This document shows positions 22,427-38,768 of a stretch of 64,000 bases of DNA, piece by piece. Origin of the DNA: Robertkochia marina (GTDB lineage Bacteria; Bacteroidota; Bacteroidia; Flavobacteriales; Flavobacteriaceae); assembly GCF_004799345.1 (NCBI RefSeq), contig NZ_SSMC01000001.1, forward strand, positions 248,001 to 312,000. Direction: 5' to 3'. The notes under the pieces are model-generated. The model did no database searches. It had not been told where the DNA came from and saw nothing but the letters and a program-made list of their open reading frames with translations. The first letter of the stretch is position 1. The number at the start of each line of letters is the position of its first letter. Position numbers and translations under genes: made by a program.

Positions 22427-22897
22427 ATGGATACCACAACACTATTTACTGCTATACGTGAGAATCACCTGAACAAGGTAAAGACCATCCTCACCGAAAA
22501 CCCGGAAATGATCAACGCTACAGACCAACGAGGATCGAGTCCGTTGTTGCTTTCCACCTATTTCGGGTTAATGGAAATGACCCGTTTGTTACTGGAATTC
22601 AAACCGGAGATCGATGCCAAGGACCCTTCGGGCAATACGGCATTGATGGGGGTGGCATTTAAGGGTTTCACCAATATTGCTCAAATGCTTCTGGAGGCCG
22701 GGGCCGATCCGAACATTACCAACGGCAACAAATCAACGGCCTTAATTTTCGCCGCCACCTTTGGCAAGGCCGATATCGTTAAATTACTCCTCGAGTACGG
22801 GGCAGACAAGACCGTTACCGACAGTGCCGGCCAGACCGCCCTTGACCATGCCAAAGAGCAGAATCACGCATCAGTGATCCCTTTACTTCAGGGGTGA
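22427..22897 (+). CDS. Ankyrin-repeat protein
   Basis: 156 residues made almost entirely of ankyrin repeats: RGSSPLLLSTYFGLMEMTRLL, SGNTALMGVAFKG.., NKSTALIFAATFGKADIVKLL, AGQTALDHAKEQNH. No signal peptide, so probably a cytoplasmic protein-binding module; the partner is unknown. Its last 15 bp overlap, tail to tail, the 3' end of the GlcNAc kinase gene on the other strand. Confidence 0.88.
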   Translation: MDTTTLFTAIRENHLNKVKTILTENPEMINATDQRGSSPLLLSTYFGLMEMTRLLLEFKPEIDAKDPSGNTALMGVAFKGFTNIAQMLLEAGADPNITNGNKSTALIFAATFGKADIVKLLLEYGADKTVTDSAGQTALDHAKEQNHASVIPLLQG

Positions 22898-23764
22898 ATC
22901 TCCTGAAAATGGTTCATGATGATCCCGGTGGTATTCCAGAAGGCCGTCTATAGGCCTGCGAATGAATTTTCCGGGAATCATTCCCTTTTCCTCCAACATC
23001 GCCGAGATCAACTTTCGGGCGTGGTAGGCTACTGATCCCACGAAATGCACCGGAACTTCCCGGCACTCCTCCGTATAAAAGCCCAGATGGGTTTCAATAA
23101 AAGATGTAAAAGCCGACCTCAACAGGCCTTGCATGAACGGATGCTCCTGATGCCCCAGGGCGAAGGGAGCAAAGGAAGCGAGGTAGGCATTGGGATATGT
23201 TTTCTTGTAAAGATGTTTTTTGACCTTCGCGGGCTTTAACTTGAATTCGGCCCTGAACAGACCTTCGAGGTCTGCCGGCATCTGCTTAAAGTAAAACGCC
23301 CTGAGCAATAACTTACCCAGGTGATTTCCGCTGGCATCATCCATCAGTGTATACCCCAGAGACGGCATACGAACTTCGATATCGGTTCCATTAAAATAAC
23401 AACAGTTAGATCCTGTACCAAGAATGGCTACCACCGCAGGTTCTGCAGTACAACTGTACACGGCGCCGGCCAGATCTTCTCTTACCCTGACAGGCATGGC
23501 ATTCTCAAAAAAGGCCGCCAGCCCTTTTTCCAACAAAGCCGCATACTTTGGAGTCCCACAACCGGCCCCGTAAAAATACACTCCGGTGACCATGCGACGG
23601 AAATCGGCAAGGTCCTGAGATTCGTATAGCCGCTCCTCGATCTCTTTGCGTTTCAGCATACTCGGATTCAACCCTTTGGTTCGCACCTTAAACCGGGTTG
23701 AACCATTGGCATCAAAAAGTATCCAATCGCATTTTGTAGAGCCACCGTCGGCAATAACTATCAT
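22883..23764 (-). CDS. BadF/BadG-type N-acetylglucosamine kinase
   Basis: 293 residues of the ASKHA fold. Phosphate-1 loop IVIADGGSTKCDWILFD at the N-terminus, phosphate-2 region VAILGTGSNCCYFNG (~residue 112), and a C-terminal VHFVGSVAYHA adenosine-type loop. Proteins of this kind phosphorylate GlcNAc (or glucosamine) with ATP. It lies 9 bp after the NagB-PIG-L gene, which strongly supports formation of GlcNAc-6-phosphate. Together they are the intracellular end of the amino-sugar locus. Confidence 0.85.
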   Translation of the reverse strand: MIVIADGGSTKCDWILFDANGSTRFKVRTKGLNPSMLKRKEIEERLYESQDLADFRRMVTGVYFYGAGCGTPKYAALLEKGLAAFFENAMPVRVREDLAGAVYSCTAEPAVVAILGTGSNCCYFNGTDIEVRMPSLGYTLMDDASGNHLGKLLLRAFYFKQMPADLEGLFRAEFKLKPAKVKKHLYKKTYPNAYLASFAPFALGHQEHPFMQGLLRSAFTSFIETHLGFYTEECREVPVHFVGSVAYHARKLISAMLEEKGMIPGKFIRRPIDGLLEYHRDHHEPFSGDSPLK

Positions 23765-23773
23765 AGTATTCGA

Positions 23774-25708
23774 TTAAAAATAGTATCTCTTAAACGCCTC
23801 TATAGCGGCATAATCGGCCAGTCCGAGTTTATGGTATTTGGCAGCGGTTTCCTTGTTGCGTTCTTCGGCACGTACCCAGAATTCCCTGGAATCGTCGCCC
23901 TGGAACATCACCCCGTCTTTTTGAGACTGGTGAAAGAAGATCGCATTTCGTTTTTTTAACACCTGGTCCGGACTCATAGGCACCGCCATTTCGATCTCGT
24001 GCATATCCCACTCGTGCCATGCCCCCCGGTACAGCCATACCCAGCAATCTTTCATAAACTCTTTTTCCTTAAGCACATCAACAGCCCCGAACAAGGCGTC
24101 AAGACACACCTTATGAGTGCCATGCGGATCTGCCAGATCACCTGCAGCGTAGATCTGATGAGGCTTAACCGCCTCAATAATGCTGCACATAATATTTATA
24201 TCTTCCCGGCCAAGAGGATTCTTCTTGATAGCTCCGGTTTCGTAGAACGGAAGTTTAAGGAAGTGAACCTGCTCATCAGGCAACCCGAGGTACCTGGTGG
24301 CACCAAGTGATTCCTTTTGACGGATCAAACCTTTCAAGGCTCTAACCTCCGGAGCATCAATACCCCTTTCATTGTTAGCCCTGATACTTTCCAGGATCTG
24401 CTTGTAAATGGTTTCCTTCGGACTCAATTGCCCGGCTACCTCGGCAAACTTGATGGCCTCGTGATTAGATACAGCTATATTCCCGGAAGTCTGGTAGGCC
24501 ACATGCACCTCATGCCCCTGCTCTATAAGACGATCAAAGGTGCCCCCCATGGAAATAACGTCGTCATCGGGATGCGGACTAAAGATGATCACCCTCTTCT
24601 TCGCAGGCTCTGAACGCTCAGGCCTATTGGAATCGTCGGCATGGGGCTTCCCTCCGGGCCACCCCGTAATAGTATGTTGTAACACATTGAACATTTTAAT
24701 GTTCAGGTTGTATGAAGAACCTTCTTTGGTAAGCAGGCCTTCCATCCCGTTATCATTATAATCCTTATCGGTGAGCCTGAGAATAGACTTCTGGGCTTTA
24801 TCGCATAACCACACCACTGCTTTTCTCGTGAGCTCAGTTGTCCATTCGCAAGGCCCCACTAACCATGGAGTCTTAATTCGCGTTAACTCTGAAGCAGCAC
24901 CTTTATCGAGAATAAAAGTAGTATTATCGTGTTCCTGTAAATAGGTGGAAGGCACCTGGGAGGTTATCTCCCCTTCAACGGCTTTTTGCACGATCTCTGC
25001 CTTATTCTGCCCCCAGGCCAGAAGTACCACGCGACGGGCATCAAGCACCGTGCGTATACCCATGGTTATGGCCTTTTTGGGCACGTTTTCAATACCCAGG
25101 AAGGCAGGAGCCGCATCAGAACGTGTCAGGTGATCGAGGGTTATCAATCTCGTACGTGAATTAAAATGAGACCCCGGCTCGTTGAATCCGATATGCCCTG
25201 TTCTTCCAATTCCCAATAACTGAAAATCCAAACCGCCATATGATTTGATCTTCTTCTCATAAGACACACAAAACTCCAGCACCTCTTCCGGTTCCAGGTC
25301 ACCCTTGGGGATATTGATATTCTCTTCAGGAATATCAATATGCTTAAAAAGGTATTCCTGCATGAAATAATGGTAACTCTGTACATTTTGGTTTGACATC
25401 GGATAGTATTCATCAAGATTGAAGGTAACCACATTTTTGAAGCTCAGGCCTTCTTCCCGATGCAATCGCACCAACTCCTCATACACCCGTATCGGGGAAG
25501 ATCCGGTGGCCAAACCAAGAACACATGGTCGCCCTTCCTGCTCCCTCTCGCGTATGAGTTGAGCTATTTCGGCAGCCACCACTGAAGAGGCATAATGGGC
25601 ATCATCATAGACCACATTATGAATTTTCTCGAAACGGGTATTCTCATAGATCCCCGCCTCCTGGTAACTGATATCTGTTAAATTTCTTAATTGCTCTTCA
25701 GCTATCAT
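23774..25708 (-). CDS. nagB: Glucosamine-6-phosphate deaminase fused to PIG-L deacetylase domain
   Basis: 644 residues with two domains. Residues ~20-275 are NagB: GLATGSSPIRVYEELVR, the catalytic VTFNLDEYYPM Asp and GRTGHIGFNEPG His; it converts GlcN-6-P to fructose-6-P and ammonia. Residues ~370-560 are a PIG-L/LmbE zinc deacetylase domain with HPDDDVISMGG and a later DPHGTHK His, so the metal ligands look intact. A ~90-residue linker joins them. Since no nagA is seen in the window, the PIG-L part could remove the acetyl group from GlcNAc-6-P; this is inference. The gene has a LytTR-like tandem site 212-241 bp upstream. Confidence 0.9.
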   Translation of the reverse strand: MIAEEQLRNLTDISYQEAGIYENTRFEKIHNVVYDDAHYASSVVAAEIAQLIREREQEGRPCVLGLATGSSPIRVYEELVRLHREEGLSFKNVVTFNLDEYYPMSNQNVQSYHYFMQEYLFKHIDIPEENINIPKGDLEPEEVLEFCVSYEKKIKSYGGLDFQLLGIGRTGHIGFNEPGSHFNSRTRLITLDHLTRSDAAPAFLGIENVPKKAITMGIRTVLDARRVVLLAWGQNKAEIVQKAVEGEITSQVPSTYLQEHDNTTFILDKGAASELTRIKTPWLVGPCEWTTELTRKAVVWLCDKAQKSILRLTDKDYNDNGMEGLLTKEGSSYNLNIKMFNVLQHTITGWPGGKPHADDSNRPERSEPAKKRVIIFSPHPDDDVISMGGTFDRLIEQGHEVHVAYQTSGNIAVSNHEAIKFAEVAGQLSPKETIYKQILESIRANNERGIDAPEVRALKGLIRQKESLGATRYLGLPDEQVHFLKLPFYETGAIKKNPLGREDINIMCSIIEAVKPHQIYAAGDLADPHGTHKVCLDALFGAVDVLKEKEFMKDCWVWLYRGAWHEWDMHEIEMAVPMSPDQVLKKRNAIFFHQSQKDGVMFQGDDSREFWVRAEERNKETAAKYHKLGLADYAAIEAFKRYYF

Positions 25709-25919
25709 GGCTTTATAATTTAATGTTTTTGTTATCTAACAGCCGCCTTAAAGATCCATCGCCAGAATAGATTCCTGCAACTATTAGAACTAAAATACAA
25801 AATATTATGGCATTATACTGCATAATTTACAGCGTAAAACTGCAAATAATTGCGATTGTATGAGTGCCGCTATCCATTAACAAGTTCGGAAAACCGATGA
25901 TCTTACAGGTATTTATTCG

Positions 25920-25949
25920 ACTAACAACGGCTGCCTGACCCCCAACAAC
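25920..25949 (-). promoter_or_regulatory. LytTR-like tandem binding site upstream of nagB
   Basis: Read on the minus strand: distal half-site GTTGTTGGG, 12-bp spacer, proximal half-site GTTGTTAGT. Period 21 bp. Both halves fit the GTTN[AG][TG] core known for LytTR regulators. The same arrangement is found upstream of susC and of the CBM9-like gene. It lies 212 bp upstream of the nagB start. Confidence 0.6.
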
Positions 25950-25998
25950 ACAGGGCTAAAACTTGTATGAAACGACAAACCCTATCCTATGAACCAAC

Positions 25999-26030
25999 AA
26001 AAAAAGGAGGGGAATCTTCCCCTCCTTTTT
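25999..26030 (-). terminator. Intrinsic terminator after susD
   Basis: GC-rich stem AAAAAGGAGGGGAA / TTCCCCTCCTTTTT (26001-26014 and 26017-26030); on the minus strand it ends in a U-run. It closes the susC-susD transcript and separates it from nagB. Confidence 0.88.
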
Positions 26031-26074
26031 GGAGCTCAACAAGCTAATAGTAACTAATAAAAAACAATTATTTT

Positions 26075-27766
26075 CTAGTTTGCCCACCAAAGTTTGGTGG
26101 CCTGGGTATCGGGTCCTTGTGCAGACACAGCTGTCTGGTAGTTACTACCATTACTGGTCTGTACATTCGTTCCGTATCGCATGCGTTGCGGATAAGCGCC
26201 ATTGAGAGTACCCGGCTCAAACAATACAAGGTCTGAAACACCCTGGGCCAGTTCGGCAGGATATCCTGTATCTCTCACTACGGCCCAGGCTTCAAATCCA
26301 TCCGTATAGTTCGCGATCCATCTCTGAACGGCTATTTTTTCCAGTTTCTCCTCCACCGTTCCCGCGGTAATATCGGCCAGGGGTGCAGAGGCGATATAGG
26401 TTTGGGCGTCGCCTTCTCCAATTCCCCATACCTTCATAGCTTCCACTATACCTTTTTCCATCATCAGCTGGGCATCATCAGAGCCCAGTCCTTTCACCGC
26501 TGCCTCTGCCCTTAGGAAATAAGCCTCTGCAGATGTCATTACAATTTCAGGATACATATTTCCTGACATCTTTGGCTGAATCACCATATCAGAAGGGGTA
26601 CTGAACAAGTTGTAATTGGCATAAGGTGCAGTTTGACCATTCAGTCTTGAAGGCTGCCCGATATACTGTCCCGAGGCAAGACTTATGGTAACCTCATCGG
26701 TACCCACGCCGGTAGCCGAATAATCTGCCCCGGCATCGTCGAGCAGGCTGATGATATAGTTCACTCTTGCCTCAAAATTGGTTGCAGCCTCTCCTTCGGC
26801 TGGGCGGGTAAAGGTTACATCACCTCCGGCTGCAGGCTTGGCGTAAACAGCCAGCCGCGGATCATTATTATCTCTCAGGTAATCTATAAGTACCTTCCCA
26901 ATGGTCCATTTTGACCCTAAACCACCGAAGTTGTGCCAGATGTCGCCATAGGCAGCACTTGACCATTGTGTGATCTCGGTATCTTTTGGCATGAGTACAC
27001 TACCACTGGCGTCATCTAAAAGAGGTGCTGCCAGCGCTTGATTAATGGCGTTTGCAGAAAAGTCATCTCCTGCAGCCCCATTGGCCCGAAGGGCCATTCT
27101 CAACTTCAGGGTGTTGGCAAGTCTTTTCCATTTTTGAAGATCACCCTGGCAGTACACATCATTTTCTGCCACATCATCAATCCCCACCCCGGTTCGTTCT
27201 GTATCACCAATAATCTGCATGGCCAGATCAAGGTCGGCTATTGCCCCTTTATAGATCTCTGCCTGAGAATCAAACTTCGGGGTAACGATTCCGTCTACCC
27301 CCGCCTCACTAAAAGGGATCATCCCGAAGGTATCGGTGTACATTTGGTAAAAGAGAGATTTGGTAACCAAACCAATGGCATACATATATTCATTCTCGAA
27401 CTGCCCACCTTCGTTGGTGAGTTTCAGAAAATTATCGATCCCTCCGAAAGCTCCTTCCAGCCATCCCCATGATGCATCGGTATATCCGGCATTGTAGGCA
27501 TAGCTCAGTCCGTCGCTCCACCAGGAGCCGTGATGTCCAAAGGTGAAATGTCCGGCATAGCGATCGGCATGGATCAGATGTGCTCTCCAGTAAGGAAAAC
27601 GGTCGGGACCAAACAATTTAAAAAGGGGTTCGGTAAGGAAATACTTTGCACTCACCTCTTCCGGAAGAAAACCATTAGGATCCTGGTTAATCTCATTAAA
27701 GTCGGAAGTACAAGAGGAAAGTAACAACCCAGTGATCATTCCTGCTGTATATAATATTCTTTTCAT
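26075..27766 (-). CDS. susD: SusD/RagB-family glycan-binding lipoprotein
   Basis: 563 residues with a lipoprotein signal (GLLLSSC) and the N-terminal FNEINQDPNGF typical of SusD-like proteins. The helical TPR-like core continues to a C-terminal part with AEAYFLRAEAAVKG. This is the surface lid that binds glycan and docks on its SusC partner, encoded 6 bp upstream. It belongs to the SusD-like 2 group by its DPN motif and length. From the neighbours the ligand is probably an amino-sugar glycan or glycopeptide. Confidence 0.9.
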   Translation of the reverse strand: MKRILYTAGMITGLLLSSCTSDFNEINQDPNGFLPEEVSAKYFLTEPLFKLFGPDRFPYWRAHLIHADRYAGHFTFGHHGSWWSDGLSYAYNAGYTDASWGWLEGAFGGIDNFLKLTNEGGQFENEYMYAIGLVTKSLFYQMYTDTFGMIPFSEAGVDGIVTPKFDSQAEIYKGAIADLDLAMQIIGDTERTGVGIDDVAENDVYCQGDLQKWKRLANTLKLRMALRANGAAGDDFSANAINQALAAPLLDDASGSVLMPKDTEITQWSSAAYGDIWHNFGGLGSKWTIGKVLIDYLRDNNDPRLAVYAKPAAGGDVTFTRPAEGEAATNFEARVNYIISLLDDAGADYSATGVGTDEVTISLASGQYIGQPSRLNGQTAPYANYNLFSTPSDMVIQPKMSGNMYPEIVMTSAEAYFLRAEAAVKGLGSDDAQLMMEKGIVEAMKVWGIGEGDAQTYIASAPLADITAGTVEEKLEKIAVQRWIANYTDGFEAWAVVRDTGYPAELAQGVSDLVLFEPGTLNGAYPQRMRYGTNVQTSNGSNYQTAVSAQGPDTQATKLWWAN

Positions 27767-27772
27767 AATGGC

Positions 27773-30700
27773 TTAAAATTTAAGATTAACATTCATACCT
27801 ACACTTCTGGTAGTGGGCAGGTTGTTATACAATACCCCCTGGGCAAAGTTGCTGGTAGAAAAGCTGGATTCCGGATCAAAATTATCCATCTCCTTGTATA
27901 TAAAGAAGAGGTTTCTTCCTGTAAGGCTAACCGAGGCACCACTTAGGAAGGTGCGCTCTAGCATCTTGGCCGGGAAATTATAGGTCAGGGCTACTTCGCG
28001 CAGCCTCACATTGGTCTGAGAATACACGTAATTGGAAGCGATCCCGCTAACGCTGCCCCAGTATTGTTGTGCTGTAATCGAGGTAGCATTGGGAGTCAGG
28101 TTTCCGGCTCCATCATCTACAAACCCGTCCAGCACCACTCCATCTTCACGATACTGCAGGGTTCTTTCTGAAACTCCCGAAGCGTCAAGAGCGGCATCTG
28201 TACCCGAGAACACCTCTCCTCCGATTCGGTAATCGACAAGGAAACGGAATCCGAAATTCCTGTAATCAAAAGAATTGGTGATACCTCCTATCATATCCGG
28301 CTGGTAATTTCCGAGCTTTACCAACTCATCTGAGCCCTGTGGCCTCCCGGCATTATCTAAAATAAGGGCTCCGGCATTAGGCCCGTCTTGAACTCGCTTA
28401 TAATCTGTACCCCAGATCTCTCCGAAACCTCCCCCTACGGTGGCTTGTACCTTAACGGTACCGGCGTTGTTTCCGGTAAAGGAGAAATTATCCAGGTCTT
28501 CGATAAGCTCTGTCAGCTTGTTTTCATTCTTTGCGATATTGGCTGAGATCTCCCAGCTGAAATCTTCTGTTCGAACGGGAGTTCCTCCCATCAGGAGTTC
28601 AAATCCTTTATTGGTAAGCTCCCCTACATTCTCACGGAAGAAACTATATCCTGTAGACTGCGGAACCGGCACATCAAAGATCAGGTCACGCGATCGAATA
28701 TCGTAGTAAGAAGCATCCAGGAAGAGTCTGTTTTCGAACATCCTGAACTCTACCCCAAATTCGATGGAGGTCACTTCTTCCGGACGCAGGTTTTCATTAG
28801 CTCTTACATCCGGTCTTGAAATCTGTGTAAGCCCGAGATACCCGTTGGCGGCAAGGTTAAAGGTTTCTGTAAGCTGATAAACCCCGGTATCGTTACCTAC
28901 CTGTGCCCAACTCGCTCTTAACTTAAGAAAGTCGATGGCTGTACCCTGGAAATCAAAGGCTGTTGAAGGAATAAAACTAAAACTCGCTGATGGATAGAAA
29001 TAGGAGCGGTTATCTTCTGATAAGGTGGAAGACCAGTCATTTCTACCGGTAAGGTCAAGATACAGGAAGTTATCCCAGGCAAAAGAAGCAGCTCCATAGA
29101 GGGAGTTTACCTTCTTTTCCTGCAGGGGTACATAGGATTGCATAGGGTCCTGCAGGTTCGATACCGTGATTCGGGTAGGTATCTTAAACCCTCGTCCGTT
29201 GATCCCGATACCCTTATAGGTTCTGTACGAGTGGTTACCTCCGAAACTGGCATTAAGATTCAGTTTCTCTGTGATATTTTTATTGGCCGTGATCAGGAAA
29301 TCAGCGTTGGTCTCTCCCACGGTATTTTCGTTAATGAAGAGCGCTCCTTCCTGGTTGAAGTGATGTCCGAACTGGTTGGCCGTAAATATATCCTGCTTCA
29401 CCATATCGGTACCGATCCTGGCAAAAGCCGAAAGCCAATCGGTGAACTGATAATCAATTTTAGCAAACCCCGTGATCCTCTTCCTGGTATCCTGGTTGAT
29501 ATCATTCTCCAGGATCCAGTAAGGGTTTCCAGAAGTTCCCCAGGAGATCACATTGTACGGTGCAGCCGGGTTTACCGGATTCTCAAGATCCTGGAAACGC
29601 TTTACATCATTGAGCACTACATTTCTCGGCATGGTATACACATAGGCAAGCACTCCTTCGGTACCCTGAGTAGCCCTGTTCTGCGCATCCTGCTCAAAAT
29701 AGGTCACTTTAGAATCAAGGGTGAACTTCTCAGATAACTTGGTAAATCCACGCAAATTAAAGTTGTGTCTTACCACCTCAGAGTTAGGGAGAATGGAATT
29801 GGCATCAGTGTGGGTATAAGAGAACAGCACATTAGAGTCCTGATTTCCTCCGGTAAGAGTAACCGCATTTATGAAGGTTGTTCCCGTTCTGAAAAAGTCC
29901 TCCACATTATCAGGTTGTGCCTCATACGGCCTGTCCTCTCCTGTGTAATAAAACTGGGAAGAACCATCAAAGGCAGGCCCCCATGAACTATTACTCTTTA
30001 CGGCATTTACCTGTTCTTCGAAGGTACCTCCTGCTGGGATCTGCGGGAAATTCCCCTGGCTACCCCGACCGTACTGGTTTTGAAACTCGGGTAAAAGCAG
30101 TGGTGTATCAACCGTGGCTGAAGAATTAATCGTAACCCCGATCCCTCGTCCGGCGGTTCCTTTTTTGGTGGTGATAAGAATAACCCCGTTACTCGCCCTC
30201 GAACCGTAAAGTGCAGCGGCGTTCGGCCCTTTAAGAATGGTCATGGTTTCAATATCTTCGGGGTTGATATCAGAAATACCGGTACCGTAATCGGCCCTGC
30301 TAAATTCTGAAGTATTGGCGCCTGCAGCAGATCCGAATCCGGAGTTATCGATCGGAATACCATCTACCACATACAAGGGTTGGTTATTTCCTGTGATCGA
30401 GTTGTTACCCCTGATCACCACCCTGGCTCCCCCGGCAGGACCGGAAGTAGATTGGGTGACCACTACCCCGGCAACCTTACCGGATAATGAATTCACCACG
30501 TTGGGTTCTTTAGCGGTGGTCAGGTCCTCGTTCTGCAATTCAGAAACTGCATATCCCAGGGCCTTTTTTTCGCGTGATACCCCAAGAGCAGTTACTACCA
30601 CCTCATCTAATTGCTGGGTATCTTCCTGTAAACTTACATTAATAACCGACTGCCCTTCCACAGGTATTTCCCGGGTAGTAAAGCCCACATATGAAAATAC

Positions 30701-30916
30701 CAGGACGGCATCCCGGCCGGCTTCAATGGTATAATTACCATTAAAATCAGTAGACGTCCCGGAGGCGGATCCCTTTAGGGAAACAGTCACACCGGGTAAT
30801 GGCACACCATCTCCCTCACTGACCACCGTTCCGGTAATCGCCTGAGATTGTGCTGCGGCCCATTGCGAAAGACAGAGGACTGCACAAAACATTAAGCTTT
30901 GAAAAGTTCGTGACAT
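27773..30916 (-). CDS. susC: SusC/RagA-family TonB-dependent transporter
   Basis: 1047 residues. Signal peptide ending AAAQ, then a CarboxypepD-like N-terminal domain (ITGTVVSEGDGVPLPGVTV, about residues 25-100), a TonB-box-like DEVVVTALG, the plug domain (~115-240, with the SusC hallmark ILKGPNAAALYGSRASNGVI) and a 22-strand barrel. It imports oligosaccharides across the outer membrane with energy from TonB. It forms a pair with the SusD gene 6 bp downstream. The 199-bp gap upstream holds a LytTR-like tandem site about 95 bp from its start. Confidence 0.94.
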   Translation of the reverse strand: MSRTFQSLMFCAVLCLSQWAAAQSQAITGTVVSEGDGVPLPGVTVSLKGSASGTSTDFNGNYTIEAGRDAVLVFSYVGFTTREIPVEGQSVINVSLQEDTQQLDEVVVTALGVSREKKALGYAVSELQNEDLTTAKEPNVVNSLSGKVAGVVVTQSTSGPAGGARVVIRGNNSITGNNQPLYVVDGIPIDNSGFGSAAGANTSEFSRADYGTGISDINPEDIETMTILKGPNAAALYGSRASNGVILITTKKGTAGRGIGVTINSSATVDTPLLLPEFQNQYGRGSQGNFPQIPAGGTFEEQVNAVKSNSSWGPAFDGSSQFYYTGEDRPYEAQPDNVEDFFRTGTTFINAVTLTGGNQDSNVLFSYTHTDANSILPNSEVVRHNFNLRGFTKLSEKFTLDSKVTYFEQDAQNRATQGTEGVLAYVYTMPRNVVLNDVKRFQDLENPVNPAAPYNVISWGTSGNPYWILENDINQDTRKRITGFAKIDYQFTDWLSAFARIGTDMVKQDIFTANQFGHHFNQEGALFINENTVGETNADFLITANKNITEKLNLNASFGGNHSYRTYKGIGINGRGFKIPTRITVSNLQDPMQSYVPLQEKKVNSLYGAASFAWDNFLYLDLTGRNDWSSTLSEDNRSYFYPSASFSFIPSTAFDFQGTAIDFLKLRASWAQVGNDTGVYQLTETFNLAANGYLGLTQISRPDVRANENLRPEEVTSIEFGVEFRMFENRLFLDASYYDIRSRDLIFDVPVPQSTGYSFFRENVGELTNKGFELLMGGTPVRTEDFSWEISANIAKNENKLTELIEDLDNFSFTGNNAGTVKVQATVGGGFGEIWGTDYKRVQDGPNAGALILDNAGRPQGSDELVKLGNYQPDMIGGITNSFDYRNFGFRFLVDYRIGGEVFSGTDAALDASGVSERTLQYREDGVVLDGFVDDGAGNLTPNATSITAQQYWGSVSGIASNYVYSQTNVRLREVALTYNFPAKMLERTFLSGASVSLTGRNLFFIYKEMDNFDPESSFSTSNFAQGVLYNNLPTTRSVGMNVNLKF

Positions 30917-30985
30917 AGAATTGATTTAAATTTAAAGTTCTGATTACTCGTTAGCTGGTTGTTATGGAACCTAAATGTGATTATA

Positions 30986-30993
30986 CATAGATA
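30986..30993 (-). promoter_or_regulatory. Candidate -7 element for susC
   Basis: TATCTATG on the minus strand, one mismatch to TAnnTTTG, 19 nt downstream of TTGG. The proximal LytTR-like half-site overlaps this -33 position, as expected for an activator contacting RNA polymerase. Weak as a promoter on its own. Confidence 0.35.
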
Positions 30994-31011
30994 AAATTGA
31001 AAGTTTTTTCG

Positions 31012-31041
31012 ACCAACAACTTACCGTAAGTTCTGAACAAC
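31012..31041 (-). promoter_or_regulatory. LytTR-like tandem binding site upstream of susC
   Basis: Minus strand: distal GTTGTTCAG, 12-bp spacer, proximal GTTGTTGGT; period 21 bp. Both halves fit the GTTN[AG][TG] core. An AAGTTGTT 8-mer is repeated exactly in the two halves. Confidence 0.65.
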
Positions 31042-31115
31042 TTGAAGTTTACTCCATAAAAAATTCATAGTGTGCTCATCTTAAGACAAATCGTTAAAAG
31101 AAACTCCCCGGTGGT

Positions 31116-33527
31116 TTAATCTTTGAAACCTTTGGAAACTTCCTCAATAACGACAGGCCTGCTGCTTCTCCCGAAGCGATTCACGGTTATGGCCCTGACC
31201 TTTCCTTTTACCGGAACCGGACCTGAATAGGTTGCTGCCATGTCGGTTTTATCTGCTTCAAGGTATCTTATATCCATCCCGGGAAATGCGGTATTCAAAT
31301 ACAGGGAGTCGTTTTTAATAAAGCCTCCTGGCGGAGGAATCCGGTAGGCAATCTCATCCTCATCCAAACGCGGGAGCTCCCATTGTACAAGGCGATTGGC
31401 AAACCTGTTCCAGGCTACATCTTTTTCTGCTCTTGGATTACCTTTCCAGGCGCGTTCTCCCAGAGCGAAAAGTTTCGGGTATATCGCATATTGCAATGCT
31501 GCCTTGTCGTGTATCAATTCAGACCAAAGCTGCCCCTGGATACCTTCCACCTTATGAAATGAGGGGAGGAATTCGAAATTGAAGACTCTTCTCGTATCTA
31601 CAAATCCTCCCCAGTAAAAACCGCGGTCTTCAGGATGGGAAGAATAAGCCATATCAAAATACAGATGGGTTACATGACTCAAAATTACCGGGTAACCCGC
31701 CTCTGCCAGTTCTTCCCCCAATCTGCTTCCTTCTGTAGATGCATTATGCCAATGATACAGCAGGGGTGGGTTTAGAGTGGCCAGAGCTGTATTGATCTTC
31801 TTAACTCCTTCTTCATGAAGTAGTCCGATCTCTTCCCAACCCGCCATTCGAATATTTTTACGCTCCAGGATCTTGCTCACGTTATTAATGAAATACAACT
31901 TAGCCAGGTTTACCACATCCTCTTGACCGGGGAATAAATTCAAACAGGCTGCACTCTGCTCCCATACGCCCACAGGAACTTCATCTCCTCCGATATGAAG
32001 GGTCTTTAAGGGAGTCCCTGATTCCCGATGCATTGCTTCCAGCTCGGACACCACTTTTTCGACAAAGGTGTAAAGGGAGGGCATACAAACATTGACCACG
32101 TTATCGTCATAATTTTGAACGGATAAATATGAAGAGTTATCCTCGGGGTCATGGAGGAGAAATTCCCGGGCTTTTTCTTCCTCCCCTAAAGAAAGCAGGG
32201 TTTTCTCTCTGGCCTTCATAGCCACAATGGCCGCCCTGGCATGTCCGGGAAGATCGATCTCAGGAATGACCTCAATATGCCGTTCGGCGGCGTATTTTAA
32301 TATTCTGATGTAGGCTTCTCTCGAATAATAACCACTTCCCGAAGTGGTTGTTGCCGATCCGTACTGGTGGTGAAGTCCGTTAATCTCATCCCGGGTATGT
32401 TGGCGAACCGCTCCCACCCGTGTAAGTTCCTCCAGGCCGGGAATCTCTATACGCCACCCTTCGTCATCGGTCAGGTGAAAATGAAAGGTGTTCAATTTTA
32501 GCCTCCCCATCTGATCCAGCAGTTCCAGAACAGCCTCCTCTTCAGAAAAGTTCCTTGCCACATCAAGATGCATCCCCCGGTAATTATGAGCAGGAAAATC
32601 ATGAATAAGGGCGCCTTGTAATTCCAGATAGCCGTCTTTTTTAAGGATTAGGGATTTCAGGGAGGTAATCCCATAAAAAACGGCAGCCCTGCTTCCACCG
32701 GATATTTTGCCACCGCTTTTCCCGATGTCCAGGTGGTATTCTTCCTCTCCCAACGAAGGATCCAGAAAAAGTCCGATCCCATCTGTCTTTTGACCTTCTT
32801 CTGTAATCTCATTTACTTTTAGCCGGAAAGAATTTTGAAAGAATTCCTTGAGGTGATCAATTTCATTCTTAAGGGCAAATGCACCCCAGATCTTTACTTC
32901 GTCATTCAGAACCATGGACTCTTTTCTGAGCTTCCATGATACAGGCTCCGGGGTAATTGGACTCAACTCATCTTTTTGTAATACTTCTAAGGAAGCATAG
33001 GTACGATACCGCTCTTCGGGAGTATCCGGAATAACCTGAGTACGACCCTTAAATAATGTAACATCCTTACCTATAGGAATGGGATGATACTCCGGGTAGA
33101 TCACCCTTTCATCATTCCCGTCAATCACCAGGTAAATTCCGGCAGGAGCATCGCTGTTCTTAATGATGGTTCCATTGGCAATAAGAGGAATATCAAGGGT
33201 ATCCCCAACCTCAAGCCTCAGACTTTTATCTATGGGAGTTATGCTGTAGAGATCTCCGGCCCAGTGCCTCATCTCATACCCGTACTCCTCAGAAGCGAGG
33301 GTATCGACCAGCCTTCCGGGAGAATGGTTAAAGAACAATTCCCAGGAGGAGCTCAGGGGTTGTGGAGTCCTGTTTACAAGCCTGAATACCGACAACCATT
33401 TATCTTCATCATCCATACGATTTTCGCGAAGTTCCCATTCAACCAGGAGGGCGTTTTCTTCAGATCGGGCAGAGCGTTCCCGGCAGCCCATACTGAGCAG
33501 CACAAATAATAGCAGTAAATATTTCAT
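31116..33527 (-). CDS. GH20 beta-N-acetylhexosaminidase lipoprotein
   Basis: 803 residues with a lipobox (LLSMGC). From the N-terminus: a beta-sandwich carbohydrate-binding domain (about 25-190), the GH20 domain-2 (about 190-315), the GH20 TIM barrel (from YRGMHLDVARNF, ~317) with the catalytic Asp-Glu pair in LHIGGDEVP, and a C-terminal chitobiase-like beta domain. Removes terminal GlcNAc or GalNAc from glycans by substrate-assisted catalysis. The lipid anchor places it at the outer membrane or periplasm. It is the last gene of the unit that also encodes glycosylasparaginase. Confidence 0.94.
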   Translation of the reverse strand: MKYLLLLFVLLSMGCRERSARSEENALLVEWELRENRMDDEDKWLSVFRLVNRTPQPLSSSWELFFNHSPGRLVDTLASEEYGYEMRHWAGDLYSITPIDKSLRLEVGDTLDIPLIANGTIIKNSDAPAGIYLVIDGNDERVIYPEYHPIPIGKDVTLFKGRTQVIPDTPEERYRTYASLEVLQKDELSPITPEPVSWKLRKESMVLNDEVKIWGAFALKNEIDHLKEFFQNSFRLKVNEITEEGQKTDGIGLFLDPSLGEEEYHLDIGKSGGKISGGSRAAVFYGITSLKSLILKKDGYLELQGALIHDFPAHNYRGMHLDVARNFSEEEAVLELLDQMGRLKLNTFHFHLTDDEGWRIEIPGLEELTRVGAVRQHTRDEINGLHHQYGSATTTSGSGYYSREAYIRILKYAAERHIEVIPEIDLPGHARAAIVAMKAREKTLLSLGEEEKAREFLLHDPEDNSSYLSVQNYDDNVVNVCMPSLYTFVEKVVSELEAMHRESGTPLKTLHIGGDEVPVGVWEQSAACLNLFPGQEDVVNLAKLYFINNVSKILERKNIRMAGWEEIGLLHEEGVKKINTALATLNPPLLYHWHNASTEGSRLGEELAEAGYPVILSHVTHLYFDMAYSSHPEDRGFYWGGFVDTRRVFNFEFLPSFHKVEGIQGQLWSELIHDKAALQYAIYPKLFALGERAWKGNPRAEKDVAWNRFANRLVQWELPRLDEDEIAYRIPPPGGFIKNDSLYLNTAFPGMDIRYLEADKTDMAATYSGPVPVKGKVRAITVNRFGRSSRPVVIEEVSKGFKD

Positions 33528-33546
33528 TAAAGTGAGTTGGTTAAGG

Positions 33547-34560
33547 TCATTTTATCTTATAGGAAGCATCGATGAGCGAATTGGAGATCTCAGAAGATCT
33601 GACGGCATAGTTAAACCCGGAACGCAGACAAAAAGAGCCGTAGGTTCCATCCTTACTCATGGCAATAAATCCTACCTGCAGGTATTCCATTTCAGGAGAG
33701 CCTTTATAGATATGAGCGATCCTGTTGGTGATGGTTTTACACGCCTCTTCAGGGCTTGCTCCCGAACGCATCAATTCTACCACCATAGCGCTTCCGGCAG
33801 TTTTAATGATGGCCTCTCCCAGGCCCGTGGCTGCAGCAGCACCGACTTCGTTGTCGAGAAAAAGTCCGGATCCTATCAGGGGAGAATCGCCGATCCTGCC
33901 GTGCATTTTCCATGCCGCCCCACTAGTGGTACAGGCACCGGCAAGGTTGCCTTCCTTATCGAGGGCGAGCATGCTAATGGTATCGTGGTTTTCAATATTG
34001 ATCACCGGCTTATAGTTCGATGTTTTCCGCCATTTATTATAGGCTTCAAGAGCTTTCTCAGTGAGTAATTCTTCTTTATGGAAGCCTTCCTGCAGGGCAA
34101 ACTGCAAGGCCCCCTCTCCTGCAAGCATTACATGAGGAGTTTTCTCCATCACCTTCCTGGCCACAGATATCGGGTGCTTTATATGTTGCAGAAAAGCCAC
34201 AGACCCGGCGTTGCTGTTGTGATCCATAATACAGGCATCCAGGGTAACCACCCCATCCCGGTCAGGCCATCCTCCATACCCAACACTACTCACTTCAGGA
34301 TCTGCCTCGGCAGTTCTCACGCCTGCCTCCACCGCATCAAGAGCCTTCCCTCCTTCCCCCAATATGTTCCAGGCTGCTTCATTGGCCGGCAAACCATGAT
34401 TCCAAGTAGAGATCACTACAGGAGATGTTGGTTGAGACTCCTGAAGACTCCCGGCAGCAGGATTCCCTGCACTTTCTGTCAAGGAATTGCCACGAGACTG
34501 TAAAGCACTAAGGCCGATAGCCCCCAGTGCAGCATTTTGAATAAAATTCCTTCTTTTCAT
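33547..34560 (-). CDS. Glycosylasparaginase (N4-(beta-N-acetylglucosaminyl)-L-asparaginase), Tat-exported
   Basis: 337 residues. The Ntn-hydrolase nucleophile is Thr194 in NHDTISML, where the precursor should cleave itself into alpha and beta chains. The substrate-binding segments GRIGDSPLIGSG and ATGLGEAI are conserved. The enzyme cuts the bond between Asn and the innermost GlcNAc of N-glycans, giving aspartate and GlcNAc. The N-terminus MKRRNFIQNAALGAIGLSAL has the twin-arginine pattern, so it should reach the periplasm folded. The well-studied bacterial homolog comes from Elizabethkingia meningoseptica. It starts 2 bp after the GHL-type gene and ends 19 bp before GH20. Confidence 0.92.
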   Translation of the reverse strand: MKRRNFIQNAALGAIGLSALQSRGNSLTESAGNPAAGSLQESQPTSPVVISTWNHGLPANEAAWNILGEGGKALDAVEAGVRTAEADPEVSSVGYGGWPDRDGVVTLDACIMDHNSNAGSVAFLQHIKHPISVARKVMEKTPHVMLAGEGALQFALQEGFHKEELLTEKALEAYNKWRKTSNYKPVINIENHDTISMLALDKEGNLAGACTTSGAAWKMHGRIGDSPLIGSGLFLDNEVGAAAATGLGEAIIKTAGSAMVVELMRSGASPEEACKTITNRIAHIYKGSPEMEYLQVGFIAMSKDGTYGSFCLRSGFNYAVRSSEISNSLIDASYKIK

Positions 34561-34562
34561 GG

Positions 34563-35684
34563 TTAGTGGTTTCGAGACTTTACTTGTTCATTTTTATCAT
34601 AGGCCTTCAGTACTTCCAGGTGCCCGGGTTTCAAGGCACCGGCATCGAACAAGGCAACACCTTTTGCACCGTTATCCCGTGCTTCCGTGATGGCCTGTCT
34701 CAATTCATCCGGGGTGAGTTCGGGAAGAAACACTCCTGTATGCAACTCGGTATTATTCCCCCTCAAATCTTCAACACCCTGGCCGGTGGCATAGCCTATC
34801 CAATCGATCTCTTCATTGTAGAAGTTGTGATACACCATGGGCAATACCATATCGATCTTCCATTTATCCCATCGCTGACGCACCATAAGATCTGCCATTT
34901 CAGGGTATGGAAATACAGCGGCCGTTAATTTCTTACCATGAGCATGAACGCGATCGTAGGCTTCATCTACCACCTTCTTGATCCGGTTCAGGCGAAATTG
35001 CTTCCACTCCATATCTATAGCAGGGTTGTTTAATGCCCTGACATCTTTGTGATGTTCTTCCTTAAACATTTCTATACAGGTATCGCAATAGCAAAAATCA
35101 AATTCGGGAAGCTCTTCTTCCTGCTCAAGATCATATTTCGGCAAGAGTCCAACCGGAAGAAAAATATCTGAATACCTTATATAATCCAGGTGAACGCTGG
35201 TAATACCCTGCACCCTGGCAAGATTTTCGGCAAGACGTAATACATGTTCGCGGGCCTCTTTCCTTGACGGACATAACCACTGATAGTAATCTACATAGGG
35301 ACGGGTATCAAAACAGGAATTACCCTCGCGACTCACTGCATACCATTCCGGGTGCTGCAGGGCAATTGAATCTCCTGGACGATTCATGGCCATAAACCAT
35401 GCGTGTACTTCCAGGCCTTCCTTTATAGCCAGGGGAGTGAGCCTGGACAGCAGGGTCGTATCCGTATTCGTATTTATGAGTACAGCGTCGATACCGGACT
35501 TACTGAATTTCCTGAATTCTGAAACATATGCAGAATCAGGTTTTTCCGGAGACGCCCCCATCCAGGCCCAAAACTTAAAAGACTCTCCGGAGTCTTCCAT
35601 GGAGTTAACAGCTATTTTTTTATTCTCGGAACAAGCCCAGAGGCACCATAGAGAAATGGTAAGTAGTAATGCTTTTTTTATCAT
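34563..35684 (-). CDS. Putative glycoside hydrolase lipoprotein (GHL10/DUF187-like TIM barrel)
   Basis: 373 residues with a lipoprotein signal (LWCLWAC). The mature part looks like a TIM barrel of the glycosyl-hydrolase-like families: KSGIDAVLINTNTD, EVHAWFMAMNRPGD, ITSVHLDYIRYSDIF, KLTAAVFPYPE, IDMVLPMVYHNFYNEE. The HLDYIRY strand with its Asp is the family hallmark. A cysteine cluster (FCYCDTCIEMF) sits after it. No experimentally defined activity can be assigned by eye. In this operon it could cut the chitobiose core of N-glycans or another GlcNAc linkage (inference). It overlaps the CBM9-like gene by 4 bp (ATGA). Confidence 0.7.
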   Translation of the reverse strand: MIKKALLLTISLWCLWACSENKKIAVNSMEDSGESFKFWAWMGASPEKPDSAYVSEFRKFSKSGIDAVLINTNTDTTLLSRLTPLAIKEGLEVHAWFMAMNRPGDSIALQHPEWYAVSREGNSCFDTRPYVDYYQWLCPSRKEAREHVLRLAENLARVQGITSVHLDYIRYSDIFLPVGLLPKYDLEQEEELPEFDFCYCDTCIEMFKEEHHKDVRALNNPAIDMEWKQFRLNRIKKVVDEAYDRVHAHGKKLTAAVFPYPEMADLMVRQRWDKWKIDMVLPMVYHNFYNEEIDWIGYATGQGVEDLRGNNTELHTGVFLPELTPDELRQAITEARDNGAKGVALFDAGALKPGHLEVLKAYDKNEQVKSRNH

Positions 35685-36829
35685 TGATCTGTAGGTGTAT
35701 TGATAGTGAATTTACCGTCGCGGCCGATCATGAGCAAATTTCCACTAATGGGACTTTTGCAACTGATGTACCAACCGGCATCATTATAGTGTAATACTAC
35801 GGGCAGGTTTGCCTCCCTGAAGGTGATCGCTCCAACTTCATTTAAATCAAGATCTCCGGAGATGCCGTCCTTTCCATCCTTGTCAAGCAGATCCCTGTAA
35901 ACAGCGTACAATTCCCATTTCAGGCGCTCTTCTCCCGGAATGGAGTATACCGTTGTTTCGTTCTCCGGATTAAAATATACATAGCCCCAGCGCTCAGGCT
36001 CGTGCATATTGATCACTTGCTGGGGAGACCATACCCAGTTGTACTCAGGAAGATACTTTCCCTGCTCATCTTTCTTTCTGGAATACCTTCCATCAGAAAG
36101 CTGAAAATCCCAATTAACCCTCGAGAAATTCATTCTCCAAAACCGACCTTCGGGAGGTACCGGTCCGTGGGCAGCCTCCTCAAGCACATCCCAGGGAAGC
36201 GCCATTTCAACACTCCAACCGGTATCTTTATCACCGGAATCATTCAGGGTGCCATCGATCGCCACAGCGCTTTGAATACCCTTTATATCCCAGTTGTCAA
36301 TAACACTCCCTCCATTGCGGTAGGGTTTAACCAAAAGCAGGTCCCAAAGGGTGTTCAGTGCATTCACCTCCAACTCATAATACTCATGGGTATCTCCATC
36401 GGGATCAATAAATACTTCGAAATCATTGTTGTAAAAGATCACGGTATCACGAAGTTTCAGAGTGCCCCAAACGTGGGGTTCCTCCATTTGCGCATAGATA
36501 TACAGGTAGCGGTTATCCCAGAGCATTTTCACCCTGGTTTGATAGGGGGGAACCTCATATCCTTCAATATCTATAAATGGTTCTGAAAACGAAGCCATTT
36601 TCCAGGCAACCTCTTCTGCCACCCCGTCAATGTTAAGAGCCTCTGCGGTATACTCCGCCACGTAAGAACGCGGTTCCATGAGCACTCCATCCTGCGCAAA
36701 CCCCAGGTTCTGTATGGAATGAAACAAAAAGAGCATAAGCAAATTCAGGAAGATATTTGCTCTCAAGTTTCCCGACGACCTTAAAATATTAGCAAATTCG
36801 CAATGCCGGCACTCAAATTTTTGAGGCAT
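35681..36829 (-). CDS. Exported carbohydrate-binding family 9-like protein
   Basis: About 382 residues. A hydrophobic signal (NIFLNLLMLFLFHSIQNLGFAQ) is followed by a CBM9-type beta-sandwich: LNIDGVAEEVAWKMAS, VKMLWDNRYLYIYAQMEEP, NNDFEVFIDPDGDTHEYYELEVNALN, and TGWSVEMALPWDVL. Such domains bind reducing or terminal sugars; no catalytic domain is present. The start is uncertain: the open frame begins at 36877, but that leaves only 18 bp to the LytTR-like site, so the ATG at 36829 or a later TTG near 36763 is more likely. First gene of the glycosylasparaginase/GH20 unit. Confidence 0.75.
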   Translation of the reverse strand: MPQKFECRHCEFANILRSSGNLRANIFLNLLMLFLFHSIQNLGFAQDGVLMEPRSYVAEYTAEALNIDGVAEEVAWKMASFSEPFIDIEGYEVPPYQTRVKMLWDNRYLYIYAQMEEPHVWGTLKLRDTVIFYNNDFEVFIDPDGDTHEYYELEVNALNTLWDLLLVKPYRNGGSVIDNWDIKGIQSAVAIDGTLNDSGDKDTGWSVEMALPWDVLEEAAHGPVPPEGRFWRMNFSRVNWDFQLSDGRYSRKKDEQGKYLPEYNWVWSPQQVINMHEPERWGYVYFNPENETTVYSIPGEERLKWELYAVYRDLLDKDGKDGISGDLDLNEVGAITFREANLPVVLHYNDAGWYISCKSPISGNLLMIGRDGKFTINTPTDQ

Positions 36830-36895
36830 GTTCAAAATATTTGTCTGTTTGTTATAAATATTCATATTTTTAAACACAACGCAACCAAAATTTAG

Positions 36896-36925
36896 ACCAA
36901 CAACTACTCTGAAAAGCTAAACACC
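36896..36925 (-). promoter_or_regulatory. LytTR-like tandem binding site between the CBM9-like gene and lytS
   Basis: Minus strand: distal GGTGTTTAG, 12-bp spacer, proximal GTTGTTGGT; period 21 bp. Both halves fit GTTN[AG][TG]. The site lies in the divergent gap, 39 bp from the lytS start, so it could serve both directions. The 11-mer GACCAACAACT is shared exactly with the susC site. Confidence 0.55.
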
Positions 36926-36963
36926 AATATTGCTGCAGAGCTGACACATCCCCCAAAGTCTGC

Positions 36964-38037
36964 ATGAAAATCTCTAAACCCAAACTGCTAAACAACCAAT
37001 ACTTCAGACACAGCTCGCCGGTCTGGCACCACATTCTTTTCTGGGTGGCCTATTTTCTGTTCAATACCATAAGGTGGGGCTTTTATTATGACGACCTCCT
37101 TTTTTCGCTCAAGGGGAACCTGGTAGAATTTCCCATCCATGTCATCATTTGTTACCTGACCCTGTATTACCTCATTCCTGTACTTATCCCAAAGAAAAAA
37201 TACTGGAGCTTCTTTATCATTTTACTGGGCGTGATCTGGGGGATGATGTATCTGAAATTTCAAATTACTTATCATTTTATCAGCAATAACGTTTGGCCCG
37301 AGGGCCCGGAATACACAGACAGCCTCACTCCAAACTACATGATCACCATGATCTTAGGCGAGGTGTATGTGGTATCGTTCGTAACGGCGATAAAAATCAC
37401 TATAGAATGGTTAAGGGAAAATCAGAGAGCTACCAGCCTGGAAAAGGAACAGCTCGAAACGGAATTGCGCTTTCTGAGAGCACAGATCTCTCCCCACTTC
37501 TTTTTTAATACCCTGAACAACATCTACGCCCTTACCATAAGCAAATCAGATAAAGCCCCTGAGATCATCCTCCGGCTCTCGAACCTGATGCGTTATCTTC
37601 TCTACCAGACCAAAGGGAGGAAACACTGTTTGAGAAAAGAGATCGAATGTATTCAAAACTACCTGGAGTTGGAAAAGATCAGGTATGATGAACAGGTTTC
37701 GGTTAACCTGGAGATAGAAGGCAACCCGGACGACAAAAAAGTTCCTCCAATGCTCATGATCTCCTTTATAGAGAATTGCTTCAAGCATGGGGCATCAAAA
37801 AATCTTGAAAAAACCTTCATTAATATTCTCTTCAGGGTTAAGGACGATGAAATTCATTTCAAGGCTACGAACACGTTGGCCGGAGATGCAAACAGCACAC
37901 CACCGCCAATAGGGGGAGGCATCGGTTTGAGCAACGTTAAAAAAAGACTGGAACTTGGATACCCGAAAGGGTCGTATGAATTAAAGAATTATATAGAAAA
38001 TCAGGAATATATTGTAACCTTAAAAATACCGGCCTAA
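36964..38037 (+). CDS. LytS-type sensor histidine kinase
   Basis: 357 residues. Four hydrophobic segments lie in the first ~150 residues (about 22-36, 55-75, 82-98, 128-146), with no large sensor domain. The cytoplasmic part is a His_kinase (PF06580-like) module: phospho-acceptor His178 in AQISPHFFFNTLNN, N-box IENCFKHG and G-box GGGIGLSNVKKRLEL. The stop codon shares one base with the start of the response regulator gene, so they are translationally coupled. Divergent from the glycan-degradation unit; the signal may be a sugar or a periplasmic partner (inference). Confidence 0.92.
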   Translation: MKISKPKLLNNQYFRHSSPVWHHILFWVAYFLFNTIRWGFYYDDLLFSLKGNLVEFPIHVIICYLTLYYLIPVLIPKKKYWSFFIILLGVIWGMMYLKFQITYHFISNNVWPEGPEYTDSLTPNYMITMILGEVYVVSFVTAIKITIEWLRENQRATSLEKEQLETELRFLRAQISPHFFFNTLNNIYALTISKSDKAPEIILRLSNLMRYLLYQTKGRKHCLRKEIECIQNYLELEKIRYDEQVSVNLEIEGNPDDKKVPPMLMISFIENCFKHGASKNLEKTFINILFRVKDDEIHFKATNTLAGDANSTPPPIGGGIGLSNVKKRLELGYPKGSYELKNYIENQEYIVTLKIPA

Positions 38038-38768
38038 TGCATTTAACCTGTGTAATTATTGATGATGAACCCCTGGCGATCAATGTGATCCGTCAATACA
38101 TTTCTGAAATGGACTCCCTGGAGGTGAGCGCCACATTTAACAGCGCCATAAAGGCCGCTGACTATCTCAGGGATCACGAGGTTGACCTGGTATTTCTGGA
38201 CATTAATATGCCCATGTTAGACGGGCTTAGCTTTTTAAAGAACTTTGATTTTAGTCCTAAGGTGATCCTGATCACGGCCTATGACCAATATGCCCTGGAG
38301 GGCTACGAACTCGAGGTAGTAGATTACCTTCTCAAACCGGTAGCCTTCCCCCGATTTGTAAAGGCTGTTGAAAAAGCCAGAACCCGGATCGGGAATGAAC
38401 TGCCGCTCGCCAGCCAGCAAAGCAGCGCTAACCGGCCTTTCAAGTTCATAAAGATCGACAAGAAAAAACTACAGAAAATATACCTGGATGAGATCATTGT
38501 GGTTGAAAGTCTTAAAGACTATATCCGGATCATTACCGAAAAAGGCCGCTATATAGTACATCAGACCCTAAGTAATTTCACAGATGAGCTCCCTTCTGAC
38601 CAGTTTATTCGCATTCACCGGTCGGTAACTGTTTCCCTGGATAAGATCGATGTGGTAGAGGGAAACAGCCTTGAAATTTGTGGCAAACGGTACACCATTG
38701 GCAGAAGCTACCTCACAGAAGCCAAAAATATCATTTTTCAAACGGAAAACTCTGAAGAGGGTGCCTGA
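38037..38768 (+). CDS. LytTR-family response regulator
   Basis: 243 residues. Receiver domain (1-120) with the acidic pair DD in IIDDEP, phospho-acceptor Asp55 in FLDINMP and Lys100 in LLKPV. The LytTR DNA-binding domain covers about 135-240 (FIKIDKKKLQKIYLDEIIVVES..., FIRIHRSVTVSLDKID). Overlaps lytS by 1 bp. LytTR proteins bind two GTT-centred repeats in tandem; three such sites occur upstream of the neighbouring amino-sugar operons, making this their likely regulator. Confidence 0.93.
   Translation: MHLTCVIIDDEPLAINVIRQYISEMDSLEVSATFNSAIKAADYLRDHEVDLVFLDINMPMLDGLSFLKNFDFSPKVILITAYDQYALEGYELEVVDYLLKPVAFPRFVKAVEKARTRIGNELPLASQQSSANRPFKFIKIDKKKLQKIYLDEIIVVESLKDYIRIITEKGRYIVHQTLSNFTDELPSDQFIRIHRSVTVSLDKIDVVEGNSLEICGKRYTIGRSYLTEAKNIIFQTENSEEGA

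Follow-up and report, generated by a model that had tools for sequence, protein, structure and literature searches.

Which regulator controls a glycan locus that has a LytS/LytTR two-component system encoded right beside its operons, and through which DNA sites would it act? This question is raised by a 64,000-nucleotide stretch of Robertkochia marina (assembly GCF_004799345.1, contig NZ_SSMC01000001.1, positions 248,001 to 312,000; hereafter the window), where the genes of a membrane histidine kinase (lytS) and a LytTR response regulator (lytR) adjoin three minus-strand operons, nagB-kinase, susCD and CBM9-GHL-glycosylasparaginase-GH20 (Table 1). Sequence comparisons indicate that this CusS/CusR-like pair very probably controls a three-promoter regulon for the catabolism of N-glycans, at their N-acetylglucosaminyl-asparagine (GlcNAc-Asn) end, and of N-acetylglucosamine (GlcNAc). 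LytTR two-component systems are a known kind, and CusSR of Flavobacterium johnsoniae is the closest relative of the Robertkochia pair.

In the mechanism proposed here, LytS would most likely sense a GlcNAc-containing saccharide and phosphorylate LytR, a dimer of which would bind two direct repeats of 9 bp with 12 bp between them. The repeats, whose centres we estimate at about -50 and -71, have a Bacteroidota-type -7 element downstream of them; bound to them, LytR would activate nagB-kinase, susCD and CBM9-GHL-glycosylasparaginase-GH20. The phylum-wide -7 consensus for Bacteroidota is TAnnTTTG. A first-pass annotation of the window had already proposed control of the three operons through such paired sites; the rarity and conservation of the sites support it, and binding by LytR is predicted.

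Paired half-sites and their rarity in the genome

The annotation had described two 9-bp half-sites, with starts 21 bp apart, ahead of each of the three minus-strand units, and re-reading the sequence bears this out. All six halves fit GTTN[AG][TG], and the proximal half is GTTGTT[AG]GT at all three sites, where it extends to GTTGTTRGTCKAA. Free of mismatches, this 13-mer occurs in the window at the three sites only; with up to 2 mismatches it has 7 window matches (4.2 expected), a number reached by 11 of 100 shuffles. A scan of the Robertkochia genome (3.58 Mb, 11 contigs) for excess matches found the paired pattern GKTGTTNRG-N12-GTTGTTRGT without mismatch three times, each time at these operons, and the next-best matches carry 2 mismatches. 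At up to 3 mismatches the count is that of a reversed-pattern control (47+31 vs 47+30), while the addition of CKAA, which comes after each proximal half, leaves the same three mismatch-free matches and one other place with 3 mismatches (control, 4+2).

The sites are also picked out by a matrix built from 16 distinct sites of other genera, none from Robertkochia, which was scored with the spacer masked or kept. With the spacer masked, the window sites rank 1, 2 and 3 (28.5, 24.7 and 18.3; next 11.8). At periods from 14 to 30 other than 21 the third-best window score is never above 14.6, period 15 giving single scores of 20.6 and 20.0 without a comparable trio. In 200 simulated first-order Markov windows, scores of at least 18.3, that of the weakest site, arise at 0.065 positions per window; the best single score reaches up to 21.7 and the third-best is always at most 16.3.

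Conservation beside related regulators

The motif and its 21-bp period are kept at orthologous lytS-lytR loci, as seen in the matrix ranks, in distance counts and in the CTAA or TAA that follows the pair, and on this point too the annotation holds. Among named relatives, Robertkochia sediminum has the closest regulator (76% identical); between the two species the half-sites plus CKAA agree at 18/22, 21/22 and 22/22 positions, and the rest of the gaps at 131/283, 91/169 and 84/139. The wider comparison covered 23 loci of the orthologue class in other genera (4 named, from Arenibacter and Maribacter, and 19 from the upper part of the family-genome list) and 63 chitin-type loci (59 Flavobacterium, the rest being [Flexibacter], a Polaribacter metagenome-assembled genome and two further Flavobacteriaceae), the label chitin-type resting on synteny with the chitin locus of F. 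johnsoniae and not on chitinase genes. Distances between strict half-sites (GNYGTTNRK) were counted up to 60 bp in the 430-bp divergent region. They stand 21 bp apart in 46 of the 63 chitin-type loci, which are close relatives with 55 distinct promoter segments, and at no other distance in that range; no strict pair was found on the lytS strand of these 63. Among the 23 orthologue-class (Maribacter-like) loci a strict pair occurs at 21 bp in 9 and at 8 and 52 bp once each. When one departure per half is allowed, the 21-bp pair is found in 59/63 chitin-type, 15/23 orthologue-class and 2/12 distant loci; in the first two of these sets, though not in the third, it is commoner than pairs at other distances.

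Bases that played no part in choosing the sites are conserved as well. CTAA directly follows the best upstream pair in 23/23 orthologue-class loci (pair scores 12-16 of 16), and TAA lies one base further downstream in 61/63 chitin-type loci. In both groups the TTT of the -7-like element is equally far from the site: counted from where the distal half starts, it occupies positions 66-68 (55 and 22 distinct segments).

Over 299 genomes of the family, regulator orthologues (E 2.6e-76 or better, at least 51% identity) occur in 45, our own genome included. The strict site pattern, partly derived from genomes later counted with it, is found in 25 of these 45 genomes and in 9 of the 254 without an orthologue (Fisher p = 4.8e-17), and in 23 of those 25 it lies within 2.5 kb of the regulator gene. 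Matches to a control pattern occur in 9 genomes, none with an orthologue, which equals the 9 orthologue-free genomes with the real pattern. Two family-pattern matches were taken as chance, namely those of loci L150 (inside a gene) and L151 (none at threshold). Regulators of 45-46% identity (L148-L149) have no site ahead of their own genes.

A combined matrix, whose training set overlaps with these loci, gives 23 matches in the 23 orthologue-class loci, 21 intergenic and 2 within genes; 20 of the intergenic matches lie 40-278 bp upstream of a correctly oriented gene and 1 at 903 bp. At threshold it has no match in L041, L132 and L133, and in L134 only within a gene. In genome G021 the sites precede nagB-kinase, two susC genes and a GH92-sized gene (its counterpart in G250 is GH92), with the site of the nagB orthologue 219 bp upstream of the gene vs 212 bp in the window. 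Other loci have sites ahead of nagB-kinase, susC and GH92-SSF-GH130-CBM9 operons; in L119 the operon continues through SSF and GH130 as far as CBM9. The gene divergent to lytS, where tested, is a GH92 alpha-mannosidase (L118), an SSF symporter (L127) or susC (L121). In the stretches fetched, CBM9 is present in 22/23 orthologue-class loci and GHL in 16/23, and the gene content of this class is mostly N-glycan. In the fetched stretches of the 63 chitin-type loci, susC adjoins lytS divergently in 60, nagB is present in 37, and nagB together with GH20 in 35. Twelve genomes of the chitin-type group hold 18 site matches, 17 of them inside the fetched locus, and zero control matches.

Two side observations may be added. 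Upstream of lytS in Flammeovirga (L045, L046, L049-L051) there are several weak repeats in 21-bp register, possibly an extended array of the operator seen in the window. One extra site in G304:C32 precedes an operon of a 267-aa protein, a TonB-dependent receptor and DUF4249, in which no glycan link was seen.

Weighing the alternatives and the known systems

The repeats could instead be the operator of another regulator, either an AraC-type hybrid two-component system or another LytTR protein, with lytS-lytR a passive neighbour. We regard this as unlikely. AraC-type hybrid systems are also known to use direct repeats, and while lytR is the only LytTR gene in the window, as the annotation said, the genome encodes six further LytTR proteins, seven in total. 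Four genomes (G006, G209, G219 and G240; L144-L147) carry the site without a Robertkochia-type regulator beside it, before a GH92-size gene with CBM9 downstream (the L144 operon is confirmed as GH92-SSF-GH130); no close regulator orthologue was found in these genomes, the best having 44-46% identity and lying elsewhere in the genome. These sites look real. However, in different genera the site is again found in the gap next to lytS; over the 299 genomes its presence goes with that of the regulator orthologue, and LytTR operators have this 9-12-9 geometry. No strong 21-bp pair was found in 3.2-3.3-kb stretches around the six other LytTR genes, where the highest score was 14 of 16. That LytR binds the sites but represses, or mainly autoregulates lytS-lytR, is more improbable again. 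The sites face the catabolic genes at a near-constant distance from their -7-like element, strict pairs in relatives are confined to the divergent strand, and ChiA is lost without CusS-CusR, as an activator would predict (PMC5127042). What speaks for repression or autoregulation is the nearness of the third site to lytS, whose start codon follows 38 bp downstream, and the LytTR protein CoxC, which represses from repeats overlapping -35 (PMC11347149). Finally, GTT-rich words are common, pairs with up to 3 mismatches occur at control level and the extended half alone is not rare with 2 mismatches, so the sites might be chance or purely structural promoter sequence that serves no regulator; we give this hardly any credence. 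There are three exact paired sites and none elsewhere in the genome, the matrix from other genera picks them out, and they are kept across genera while the remaining gap sequence has diverged, a conservation that strongly disfavours chance.

Control by LytR also has points that weigh against it. When the spacer is scored too, the window sites come out at ranks 1, 3 and 4 in the other-genera matrix; a Flavobacterium-group matrix ranks them 1, 3 and 5 with the spacer masked and has no window site among its top 8 listed with the spacer kept. The spacer sequence looks genus-specific. Sites for these matrices were picked with a half-site score taken from the first-pass motif at period 21, and the chitin-type loci, as close relatives, are not independent cases. 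The strict pattern is absent from 20/45 orthologue-bearing genomes, and the R. sediminum nagB site is partly conserved, falls under the matrix threshold and is seen only with 2 mismatches. In the distant loci (Cytophagales, Flammeovirga, Fulvivirga and Lentimicrobium) the strict motif is unsupported, at 1/12. The likeness to CusR is drawn from related species, in which the regulator at the CusR-syntenic place is a LytTR protein, and not from F. johnsoniae CusR. Site anatomy and conservation are directly seen; we infer phosphorylation, binding, activation and ligand.

The closest known system is the F. johnsoniae chitin locus, where a mutant deleted for cusS-cusR neither grows on chitin nor produces ChiA, and where CusS-CusR are Fjoh_4563-4564 in the order Fjoh_4562-4565 with a major facilitator superfamily (MFS) transporter (PMC5127042). 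The likeness lies in a sensor-regulator pair next to susC, in a locus that also holds nagB and GH20 (PMC5127042). Locus L104, of a related species, has the order susC-lytS-lytR-MFS with PF06580-like and LytTR-type proteins. The same 9-12-9 repeats and TAA stand in chitin-type loci of related species, as distinct from F. johnsoniae itself. Chitin-type regulators of F. johnsoniae relatives are about 41% identical to Robertkochia LytR. In contrast, the CusS-CusR substrate is chitin, whereas glycosylasparaginase, GHL and CBM9 point to N-glycan in Robertkochia, where the CusS-CusR trait of divergent susC and chitin genes is lacking and the gene divergent to lytS is CBM9. The available portion of PMC5127042 uses the word LytTR 0 times and gives no operator. 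By analogy, the Robertkochia pair would work like CusSR and is not to be filed as a chitin system. The annotation had spoken of amino-sugar operons; catabolism of N-glycans (GlcNAc-Asn) and of GlcNAc describes the regulon better, as glycosylasparaginase and GH20 point to the GlcNAc-Asn end of N-glycans and not to free amino sugars alone.

The candidate operator agrees with those of other LytTR systems, in which a 12-bp spacer is usual (PMC6193735) and the canonical repeat spacing is 10-13 bp (PMC11347149). In the operators of AgrA, HdrR/BrsR, RcoM and CoxC, two or three direct repeats, each 8-9 bp long and for the most part separated by about 12 bp, lie at the promoter or immediately upstream of it (PMC6193735, PMC11347149, PMC4227749). 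Unlike these, the Robertkochia repeat is GTTGTTRGT and is combined with a Bacteroidota -7 element, and the role is glycan catabolism where theirs are quorum sensing, bacteriocins and carbon monoxide. Hybrid two-component systems (HTCS), SusR and extracytoplasmic function (ECF) sigma factors of Bacteroides are likewise regulators of polysaccharide utilization loci (PULs), but with an AraC-type or other DNA-binding domain, and LytTR occurs 0 times as a word in the available portion of PMC3878776. The literature searched, outside of which lie most subscription journals, held no account of the operator or of LytTR control of an N-glycan PUL. A LytTR-run glycan locus is not as unusual as the annotation held: CusS-CusR is already a precedent for a two-component system in charge of a PUL for a GlcNAc polymer.

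The N-terminal membrane region of LytS keeps RWGxYxxDY and WPE across N-glycan- and chitin-type loci (16 sequences, including the window, L057 and L104). Because this region is conserved between the two types, its sequence suggests that their sensors may share a related ligand, and it is nominated as the candidate ligand site. Tentatively, and with slightly more doubt than belief, we propose that CusSR-like LytS/LytTR pairs form a further class of Bacteroidota PUL regulators beside SusR, HTCS and ECF, with one conserved operator (9-12-9 direct repeats, then TAA, at a fixed distance from the -7 element), a small RWGxYxxDY/WPE membrane sensor and a shared GlcNAc-containing cue, perhaps chitobiose-like. 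If so, the same signal would drive chitin and N-glycan loci, and the use of both would be tied to one sensor family. A concrete candidate operator would also be at hand for a type of PUL regulator whose sole genetic precedent found, CusSR, came without one in the available portion of its paper (PMC5127042), and would enable regulon prediction in many Bacteroidota.

Genes of the locus

Table 1. Regulator genes, operon genes, paired sites and -7-like elements of the R. marina window.
Feature	Position	Strand	Basis or remark
lytS, membrane histidine kinase (PF06580)	36964..38037	+	Pfam 6.3e-26
lytR, response regulator, receiver and LytTR DNA-binding domain	38037..38768	+	PF00072 3.5e-20, PF04397 1e-16
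BadF/BadG-type sugar kinase, GlcNAc/MurNAc kinase-like	22883..23764	-	PDB matches including 8ow9, 8oqk; Pfam BcrAD_BadFG under cut-off
NagB fused to PIG-L deacetylase domain	23774..25708	-	PF01182 and PF02585; NF002557
susD-like	26075..27766	-	PF12771 2.6e-60
susC-like TonB-dependent receptor	27773..30916	-	TIGR04056 9.5e-206
GH20 beta-N-acetylhexosaminidase	31116..33527	-	PF00728 1.1e-87
Glycosylasparaginase (AGA), GlcNAc-Asn hydrolase	33547..34560	-	PF01112; PDB 3ljq 1.7e-119
Glycosyl hydrolase-like (DUF4015/GHL10)	34563..35684	-	Pfam-type domain scan
CBM9 protein, GTG start at 36877	35681..36877	-	PF06452 2.3e-09
Tandem half-sites 9-12-9, upstream of nagB-kinase	25949-25920	-	GTTGTTGGG-12-GTTGTTAGT
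Tandem half-sites 9-12-9, upstream of susCD	31041-31012	-	GTTGTTCAG-12-GTTGTTGGT
Tandem half-sites 9-12-9, upstream of CBM9-GHL-AGA-GH20, gap divergent to lytS	36925-36896	-	GGTGTTTAG-12-GTTGTTGGT
Weak -7-like element GAACTTGT (nagB promoter)	25880..25887	-	site distance as in relatives; poor match
-7-like element CACATTTA (susC promoter), TACATTTA in R. sediminum	30972..30979	-	position as in relatives
-7-like element AATATTTA (CBM9 promoter), 1 bp shifted vs other genera	36855..36862	-	comparison with relatives

The domain scan covered the ten locus proteins, among which no chitinase was found. LytS has three hydrophobic segments above threshold and, by eye, a PHFFFN H-box and the N- and G-box-like motifs FIENCFKHG and GIGL; its Pfam scan gave PF06580 and no separate ATPase domain match. 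Both domains of LytR exceed their cut-offs, and its FIRIHRS fits the LytTR signature FhRhHRS (PMC4227749). The comparison of LytR with its six LytTR paralogues was incomplete, lacking proper sequences of L003 and L004 and the start of L002. The window 'asparaginase' matches glycosylasparaginases of solved structure at E ~1e-119.

The GTG start of the CBM9 gene was probably called too early, with the true start further in, because the likely -7 element sits downstream of this GTG. In locus L142 the tandem site likewise falls inside the predicted CBM9 start. The PIG-L domain of the window NagB fusion might perform the NagA step. A NagB-PIG-L (LmbE-type) fusion is also present in the 81%-identical protein of locus L138.

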